Source of the DNA: Alicyclobacillus contaminans DSM 17975
GTDB lineage: Bacteria > Bacillota > Bacilli > Alicyclobacillales > Alicyclobacillaceae
Length of the DNA: 64,000 nucleotides
Reading direction: 5' to 3'
Assembly (NCBI RefSeq): GCF_000429525.1
Contig: NZ_AUCA01000001.1
Span: 1-64,000, forward strand
Position 1 is the stretch's first letter; the number at the start of each line of letters is the position of its first letter. Shown here piece by piece: positions 5,643-41,468 of the stretch. Position numbers and translations under genes: made by a program. The notes beneath the pieces were generated by a model that ran no database searches, had not been told where the DNA came from, and worked only from the letters and a program-made list of their open reading frames with translations.

Positions 5643-5671
5643 TTGAAATATGTCGATTTATGGTGCAGAAT
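5643..5671 (+). promoter_or_regulatory. Candidate sigma-A promoter of riboswitch-EAL transcript
   Basis: TTGAAA at 5643 and CAGAAT at 5666 are separated by exactly 17 bases. Transcription would start near 5679, just upstream of the riboswitch aptamer. The -10 element matches consensus at four of six positions. Confidence 0.45.
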
Positions 5672-5696: not shown

Positions 5697-5785
5697 TTCC
5701 ACATGAACAGGGCAAACCAGTGGAAACGCTGGGACGCAAAGCCACGGGTCTAAGGGTAAAACCTATGATCGCCGGGTTGCCACGA
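5697..5785 (+). promoter_or_regulatory. c-di-GMP-I (GEMM-I) riboswitch
   Basis: The conserved GEMM-I core is present in order: AACAGGGCAAACC, a short P2 stem capped by GAAA, GGGACGCAAAGCC, the CTAAGG element, and the closing CGGGTTGCC. The last segment pairs with GGCAAACC to make P1. This class binds cyclic di-GMP and controls transcription or translation of the downstream gene. The gene that follows encodes an EAL-domain c-di-GMP phosphodiesterase, so the RNA probably provides feedback on the nucleotide it senses. A terminator follows at once, indicating transcriptional control. Confidence 0.93.
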
Positions 5786-5796
5786 CATACCTTTTG

Positions 5797-5823
5797 GGCG
5801 ATCCGTGCACGGGTTGCCTTTTT
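5797..5823 (+). terminator. Riboswitch expression-platform terminator
   Basis: GGCGATCCG and CGGGTTGCC form a nine-pair stem (two G-U pairs) with a TGCA loop, followed by TTTTT. Its 3' arm repeats the CGGGTTGCC of the aptamer P1 closing strand. The aptamer's 5' P1 strand could therefore pair with either copy, which gives a simple means of switching. Whether ligand turns expression on or off cannot be read from sequence alone. Confidence 0.82.
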
Positions 5824-5840
5824 CTACAAATTGGGGCGAA

Positions 5841-5944
5841 GGGTGAGGGGAATGGTAGACAAGAAGAATATCACGCTGTCGAAAAATCGGGTGAGGGGTG
5901 GGGGAAATGAGCAAGAAGCATATCACACTTGCGAATGGAAAAAT
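5841..5944 (+). repeat. Imperfect direct duplication of the gene start region
   Basis: Two copies, about 5841-5887 and 5889-5944, share GGGTGAGGGG, an ATG, CAAGAAG, ATATCAC, CGAA and AAAAAT in the same order. Each copy contains a ribosome binding site and an ATG (5852 and 5907). The encoded peptides start MVDKKNITL and MSKKHITL. The two starts lie in different frames relative to the G tract that follows. Confidence 0.7.
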
Positions 5945-5974
5945 AACCCTTCCGGGGGGGGGGGGGGGGTATAA
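5852..5974 (+). CDS. Upstream alternative start ORF entering the G tract
   Basis: The ATG at 5852 follows GAGGGGA and opens a 40-codon frame that runs without a stop through the 16-G tract. It ends at the TAA directly after it. As written it would make only a short peptide ending in Gly-Gly-Gly-Gly-Gly-Val. If the tract lost one G or gained two, this frame would continue into the EAL domain. It is therefore either a leader peptide or an alternative start for the phosphodiesterase. Its first residues resemble those of the main start. Confidence 0.45.
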   Translation: MVDKKNITLSKNRVRGGGNEQEAYHTCEWKNNPSGGGGGV

Positions 5975-6881
5975 TCCTCCAATAAACCCAATTTATGATA
6001 TTTCTATTCAAAGAAGTGTTGAATGGATACTTGAGCAAGGACGCATTGACACCGTCTACCATCCGATTGTAGATCACGCCAACAGCACGGTTTTCGGACA
6101 TGAGGTTCTCAGCCGTCCCCACTACGAAGGGCAACGGATTCCACCGGATGTCTGGTTTCACGCCGCTTATGAAAGCGGCCTGGCCGTGGATGCGGATTTG
6201 CTTTCGCTCTCCACCGGGGTGAAAGATTTCAGTGCATTGCCCCACGGAATCGCTTCCACCCCTCTGTTTGTCAATGTGATGCCCAACAGCCTTTCCGACA
6301 AGTCTTTTCTTCGGGGGGTTGAAATCCTCTTTGAAGAGGGATATCGCCAACCGGATGAATTGGTTTTCGAAGTCATTGAGCATGTGTCGTACGATCCGAA
6401 GTCATTGGCCCAATGCATCAAGCCCCTGCGCTCACTCGGAATTCGCATTGCCTTGGACGACTTCGGGATGGGGAATGCCAATCTCGCTGCGCTCGTTCAG
6501 CTTGAGCCGGACTTCATCAAAGTGGATCGTTCGCTGATTCAGGGAATTTCCACGTCATCCGCAAAGCAACGACTGTTGTCCCACCTGGTGGATTATATGG
6601 ATTCGGGTAATTCGGTGATTGCGGAGGGTGTGGAAACCCACGACGACTTGCTCGCTGTTCAGGCATCCGGCGTGAATCTGAGCCAAGGATACTACTGGAC
6701 CGCTCCCATGCCCATCACGAATCTCACCCTGTTGACGGAGGCTATAGAGAAGGCGAGAGACGAACTGGTCGCTTGTGTGCAAGAGAAAAACGGTGTGTTG
6801 ACAGACGACGAAGTGGTGCAGAAGAGTCAACAACTGGACTTCCTGATTATACAATATTGCCATTTGGGCCTCGGGATGTAG
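5907..6881 (+). CDS. EAL-domain c-di-GMP phosphodiesterase, G-tract interrupted
   Basis: About 324 residues. After a short N-terminus with five consecutive glycines (residues 17-21, encoded by the G16 tract) comes a single EAL domain. The catalytic signatures are all present: GHEVLSRP (the EAL motif as EVL), FVNVMP, ELVFEVIEH, IALDDFGMGNANL, PDFIKVDRS, VIAEGVET and QGYYW. It should hydrolyse c-di-GMP to pGpG in the cytoplasm; no membrane segment or sensor domain is seen. The ATG at 5907 follows a G-rich ribosome binding site. A c-di-GMP-I riboswitch and terminator precede it, and a second start region lies at 5852. Changing the tract by one or two bases would truncate this frame soon after the tract. 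Confidence 0.9.
   Translation: MSKKHITLANGKITLPGGGGGYNPPINPIYDISIQRSVEWILEQGRIDTVYHPIVDHANSTVFGHEVLSRPHYEGQRIPPDVWFHAAYESGLAVDADLLSLSTGVKDFSALPHGIASTPLFVNVMPNSLSDKSFLRGVEILFEEGYRQPDELVFEVIEHVSYDPKSLAQCIKPLRSLGIRIALDDFGMGNANLAALVQLEPDFIKVDRSLIQGISTSSAKQRLLSHLVDYMDSGNSVIAEGVETHDDLLAVQASGVNLSQGYYWTAPMPITNLTLLTEAIEKARDELVACVQEKNGVLTDDEVVQKSQQLDFLIIQYCHLGLGM
5954..5969 (+). repeat. Homopolymer of 16 G inside the EAL coding sequence
   Basis: Sixteen consecutive G bases run from the last base of a Pro codon through five Gly codons. Long G tracts inside genes are classic sites of slipped-strand length change and on/off phase variation in other bacteria. The exact length could also be an assembly estimate. 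A TATAAT follows directly. Confidence 0.85.
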
Positions 6882-41306: not shown

Positions 41307-41324
41307 GATCTCATCTGAATATGA

Positions 41325-41468
41325 ACCTTCGGGGGGCAGGGTGAGGCACAGGAAGGTGCCAATTCCCGACCGGTGGTGACGCCGTCAGGCGAAGGCCACG
41401 AGCCGCAAGGCAGGAACTGGTGAGAGTCCAGTACCGACGGTACAGTCCGGATGGGAGAAGGGAACGGG
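41325..41468 (+). promoter_or_regulatory. FMN (RFN) riboswitch
   Basis: The RFN element is clear: CTTCGGGGGGCAGGGTG at the 5' side, AATTCCCGACCGGTGGT, the CACGAGCCG segment, CTGGTGAGAGTCCAG, ACCGACGGTACAGTCCGGATGGGAGAAGG (given here as consecutive landmarks ACCGAC, AGTCCGGATGGGAGAAGG). It binds FMN and usually represses riboflavin synthesis or uptake genes. A terminator hairpin follows at 41523. The downstream coding sequence is a DMT-transporter stub followed by a LysE exporter, not a known riboflavin gene. Confidence 0.95.

Follow-up and report, generated by a model that had tools for sequence, protein, structure and literature searches.

In the 64,000-nucleotide stretch of Alicyclobacillus contaminans DSM 17975 analysed here (the window), a c-di-GMP-I riboswitch and an intrinsic terminator precede a gene whose product joins an EAL domain to a Spo0E-like domain, and an unbroken run of 16 G lies inside the coding start. 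We propose, with a probability of roughly 0.7, that this locus is a slipped-strand, phase-variable, riboswitch-gated EAL-Spo0E switch, for which we infer the direction of control, the slippage, the enzymatic activities and the phenotype from sequence. Two layers would thereby act on one phosphodiesterase: an OFF-type c-di-GMP-I leader for sensing, and a G16 tract that would change its length by slipped-strand mispairing and so add an element of chance. The original prediction had described the target as a c-di-GMP phosphodiesterase. The EAL domain bears this out; the Spo0E-like domain and the G16 tract had been overlooked, and together they change the view of the most likely role of the locus.

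The EAL-Spo0E protein and its leader

The coding sequence at 5907-6881, which a tract of 16 G leaves in frame, specifies a protein of 324 amino acids (all features of this locus lie on the plus strand). Two of its domains exceed the Pfam cut-offs, namely an EAL domain, a predicted c-di-GMP phosphodiesterase, at residues 42-267 (6030-6707; PF00563, 174 bits), and a Spo0E-like domain with the motif SQQLD at residues 276-318 (6732-6860; PF09388, 42 bits, cut-off 23). Both were matched in 15 of the 18 orthologs scanned. Residues E45, N102, E134, D163, D164, K184, E219 and Q239, which are of the catalytic, metal-binding or substrate-binding type of EAL domains, are invariant in 18 orthologs; the EAL motif itself reads EVL in the window protein and EAL in the other orthologs. 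A profile search with the C-terminal part retrieved the solved Spo0E-type chains 2c0s and 2bzb, S39 and D43, numbered by the C-terminal alignment, are invariant, and the protein carries the SQ-x-LD motif by which the Spo0E-like family is recognized. Homology of the product to EAL and Spo0E proteins is nearly certain, and the activities to be expected from it would be c-di-GMP hydrolysis by the EAL domain and dephosphorylation of Spo0A~P by the Spo0E-like domain. With the Spo0E-like aspartyl-phosphate phosphatases (PF09388) the window domain has in common a helical fold of about 40 residues and the SQ-x-LD motif. Whereas the members known to us are small stand-alone proteins, it is fused to an EAL enzyme.

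Upstream of the gene, the RNA at 5701-5784 matches the c-di-GMP-I aptamer model RF01051 over its full length (cmscan, model positions 1-87) with 83.7 bits against a gathering score of 35, E = 5e-15 and no broken pairs. Among the eight c-di-GMP-I aptamers of the genome it scores highest, and its membership of this class, predicted originally under the name GEMM-I, is nearly certain. Model position 11 is a G in the window aptamer, which we take to correspond to G20 of Vc2, the base that selects c-di-GMP over cGAMP in this class; cGAMP is for this reason an unlikely ligand. Eleven bases past the aptamer, and so within the 12 bases named beforehand, follows an almost certainly genuine intrinsic terminator (5796-5823), which consists of the hairpin GGGCGATCCG-TGCA-CGGGTTGCCT at 5796-5819 with T's directly 3' of it. 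Ahead of the aptamer, a consensus scan found a sigma-70-type promoter-like site, TTGAAA-17 nt-CAGAAT (5643-5671, 9/12 positions), of which 0.5 matches are expected in shuffled sequence, so that it is weak evidence for a promoter. Elsewhere in the window, an FMN riboswitch aptamer is located at 41321-41466 (+) (RF00050, 78 bits).

Direction of the riboswitch

The sequence CGGGTTGCC occurs twice in the leader, at 5773-5781 in the aptamer and again in the 3' arm of the terminator. The repeat had been noted before and ascribed to the P1 strand of the aptamer. In the Rfam structure, the first copy corresponds to the 3' strand of the second hairpin together with the GCC adjoining the ligand site, not to a separate P1. 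Folding of the growing transcript keeps this strand inside the aptamer up to nucleotide 5800 and places it wholly on the 5' arm of the terminator, where it pairs with 5797-5805, from nucleotide 5806; from there on the predicted antiterminator has a probability of 1.0. The antiterminated state is calculated at -47.7 kcal/mol compared with -37.9 kcal/mol for the aptamer helices plus terminator, with the ligand and tertiary contacts uncounted. Ligand and tertiary contacts would need to make up some 10 kcal/mol, a sum that nanomolar binding can reach. The 5' arm of the terminator is complementary to the aptamer strand in most of the EAL-linked orthologs as well, and the complementarity tracks sequence change: GGGUUGCC is found with GGCAAC or GGCGAC, and GGGCUGCC with GGCAGC or GGCGGC (examples are L013, L014, L018, L020, L024, L026, L032, L034 and L041). 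Folding and ortholog complementarity both agree with the original proposal that the two CGGGTTGCC copies compete for the 5' arm. In orthologs L016 and L028 the fit is poor and no antiterminator is predicted, and a score for downstream pairing of the aptamer strand did not separate the EAL riboswitches from the others in the genome, as four of five controls also scored high.

On the basis of co-transcriptional folding and ortholog complementarity, the riboswitch is quite probably an OFF switch. When c-di-GMP is scarce, the 3' strand of the aptamer would move onto the 5' arm of the terminator and transcription would continue; once c-di-GMP is bound, the strand would be kept in the aptamer, the terminator would form and the gene would be off. 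Since the product is predicted to destroy c-di-GMP, an OFF switch would render the loop self-reinforcing, so that low levels stay low and high levels stay high, and not homeostatic. Of the two kinds of feedback considered originally, with the sign left open, switch-like expression is what this arrangement predicts, and confinement of c-di-GMP within limits is not.

The converse would be an ON switch with negative feedback, in which c-di-GMP blocks termination and the phosphodiesterase is produced in the presence of plentiful substrate. Such a design has a homeostatic logic, the direction is not decidable by energy models, and L016 and L028 lack a predicted antiterminator. We nevertheless consider it unlikely, because complementarity between the 5' arm of the terminator and the aptamer's own 3' strand, present in the window and in most orthologs, is the classical OFF layout, and no antiterminator that depends on the folded aptamer was seen.

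A conserved G tract at the coding start

The G16 homopolymer at 5954-5969, a putative slipped-strand phase-variation tract, lies within the start of the coding sequence. Runs of 12-29 G occupy the corresponding position in EAL genes from many genera of the Alicyclobacillaceae and two further families, mostly behind a c-di-GMP-I riboswitch; in the closed or nearly closed genomes G003, G026 and G032 (2, 4 and 1 contigs) it is the sole run of at least 12 G. Of the order's 59 genomes, 18 contain the pattern G10TAWWA, and none contains the reversed control pattern. The 21 occurrences of G10TAWWA comprise 20 EAL-gene leaders, among them one contig-end fragment and two in a duplicated degenerate copy, and one place of another kind. 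A sample of 398 Bacilli added only three genomes with the pattern, in two of which it belongs to EAL-Spo0E genes behind a riboswitch. Conservation of the tract is nearly certain. Within the tracts, GGG accounts for each of the 120 glycine codons, compared with 80 of 320 (25%) elsewhere in the same genes; what is conserved is consequently the run of DNA, not its glycines. C clusters flank the run on both sides in most orthologs (ACCC..C before it, TATAA..CC..AACCCA after it), and in both wrong frames a stop codon follows soon after the run (window 5945-6000; L014, L016, L022 and L117 for either observation).

Tract length differs between close relatives. Two genomes carry G12 and G20, respectively, at loci whose flanks are about 99% identical (59/60 and 893/900 positions). 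When reading begins at the best-placed start, the tract keeps the frame in 7 of 17 genes and breaks it in 10; each species is represented by a single genome in these counts, and assembled tracts carry a possible error of one or two G. In L014 the ATG is out of frame and a GTG start is in frame, and in L017, where other bases interrupt the run, the ATG is in frame. In five relatives contigs end at the tract, and the G49 run of L027, being a contig end, was treated as unreliable. Recurrence of the tract at one and the same position across numerous independent genomes led us to reject an assembly artefact as its source. The locus displays the marks of a contingency gene, namely a long, conserved homopolymer in the 5' coding part and length differences between close relatives that yield in-frame and out-of-frame states, and slipped-strand switching is very likely.

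In the window, the region of the ribosome-binding site and start codon is present as a tandem imperfect duplication (5836-5888 and 5889-5953), which gave a local alignment score of 61 against a maximum of 45 over 500 shuffles and was seen in none of the other copies. The upstream ATG at 5852-5854 and the ATG at 5907 are in different frames, which would leave two productive tract states and one silent state. Tracts of 13, 16 or 19 G would permit synthesis of the protein from ATG 5907; with 12, 15, 18 or 21 G, the lengths at which ATG 5852 is in frame with the EAL domain, a form with a longer N-terminus would be made; and 14, 17 or 20 G would allow the protein to be made from neither. The three-state behaviour predicted in this way is likely for this strain.

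Long G runs can also make polymerase or ribosome slip, and slippage during transcription or translation might give every cell a fixed mixture of frames with no heritable phase variation. Such slippage would rescue the out-of-frame lengths that are common among the orthologs. Against it, lengths of 12-29 G in all three frames point to change at the DNA level, as does the difference of 8 G between loci with nearly identical flanks, and the gene that lost its tract, L017, is in frame. A fixed mixture is improbable in our estimate; slippage of this kind and DNA phase variation are compatible and can both hold. Very unlikely is a purely structural tract, a polyglycine linker or an RNA G-quadruplex with length differences that are neutral or due to sequencing error. 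G runs are able to form quadruplexes, and the residues YKYPxNP encoded 3' of the tract are conserved too, but the exclusive use of GGG speaks against a need at the protein level, the majority of copies are out of frame, and a quadruplex does not require an unbroken run. An ordinary riboswitch-controlled phosphodiesterase, as first described and nothing more, is hardly tenable: every part it names is present, yet it offers no account of the Spo0E domain, the duplication of the start or the conservation of the G tract.

Related copies, known systems and implications

The same genome encodes a second EAL gene (C6:86127-86924 (-)) that is devoid of a Spo0E domain, is preceded by a c-di-GMP-I riboswitch and terminator of its own and carries a G16 run (C6:86127-87240 (-), L006 and L092); a GTG start apparently puts it in frame. 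A third EAL gene (C25:31135) has the riboswitch and no G run. At G000:C22:49492-49507 (+) (L101), another G16 run is followed by no long open frame. Two c-di-GMP-I riboswitches lie back to back on opposite strands at G000:C38:23210-23536 (L007 and L012), one facing a Cache-HAMP chemoreceptor gene and the other a sigma-70-region-2 gene; neither terminator shares the aptamer strand, in contrast to those of the EAL genes. In genome G021, a riboswitch, a leader and a G17 run stand before an EAL-PAS-histidine-kinase gene (L126, G021:C1:2045500-2050700), and its own EAL-Spo0E gene is frameshifted or disrupted and has no long run. The occurrence of this arrangement on a different EAL protein suggests that the leader can pass between genes. 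Four tract-bearing copies have no recognizable riboswitch (L114, L117, L119 and L121), so the sensing and tract layers are separable. L127 (G016:C1:789500-797500) contains two G21 leaders 4.5 kb apart that are identical over hundreds of bases, with a broken EAL-Spo0E frame; one of the two overlaps a GGDEF gene.

Riboswitch sensing combined with phase variation is already known. In C. difficile, the flgB operon and cmrRST have a c-di-GMP riboswitch, of class I and OFF type in the case of flgB, followed in the leader by an invertible element for phase variation (PMC8844915, PMC6366702). These leaders vary by site-specific DNA inversion and control flagella or regulators, whereas the window locus would vary through a coding G homopolymer and would control a phosphodiesterase of the ligand itself, a kind of riboswitch target said to be rare (PMC6366702), which in this case is fused to Spo0E. 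The C. difficile c-di-GMP phosphodiesterases PdcB and PdcC are likewise phase-switched and alter cellular c-di-GMP; they are GGDEF-EAL proteins without a Spo0E domain that vary by inversion, not slippage, and the account consulted mentions no c-di-GMP riboswitch as pdcB's own control (PMC9286219). In C. difficile, c-di-GMP has also been linked to sporulation (PMC8653836). With the homopolymeric-tract contingency genes reviewed in PMC2831843, the window locus has in common a frame-setting homopolymer in the 5' coding part, to which it adds the riboswitch, cross-genus conservation in an enzyme of c-di-GMP metabolism from endospore-forming bacteria and the two-frame duplicated start. The open-licence literature yielded no prior description of G-tract phase-variable c-di-GMP phosphodiesterases, EAL-Spo0E fusions or phase variation in Alicyclobacillus.

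By joining c-di-GMP breakdown to a predicted dephosphorylation of Spo0A, the product would give 'on' cells low c-di-GMP and restrain them from sporulation, and the locus would serve as a bet-hedging device; this effect on sporulation is plausible. A broader model, to which we give an even chance, is that a conserved cassette of OFF riboswitch, terminator, short leader peptide and hypervariable G tract heads EAL genes fused to parts of two-component systems or the Spo0A phosphorelay, mostly Spo0E-like and in one species a PAS-histidine kinase. It would set by chance, and lock by feedback, a low c-di-GMP state and sporulation readiness, with three states and two protein forms in the window.

For annotation, the contingency-like tract has a practical consequence: in A. 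acidocaldarius pAACI02, whose ortholog has a G21 tract, the annotated gene start lies downstream of the tract, and the gene is truncated because of it. Predicted riboswitch control of the ligand's own phosphodiesterase is family-wide here and apparently self-reinforcing. Signal sensing and chance, the latter through an apparent contingency tract, would thus meet on one enzyme with a predicted sporulation-phosphatase domain, and the splitting of spore formers into subpopulations becomes directly testable.
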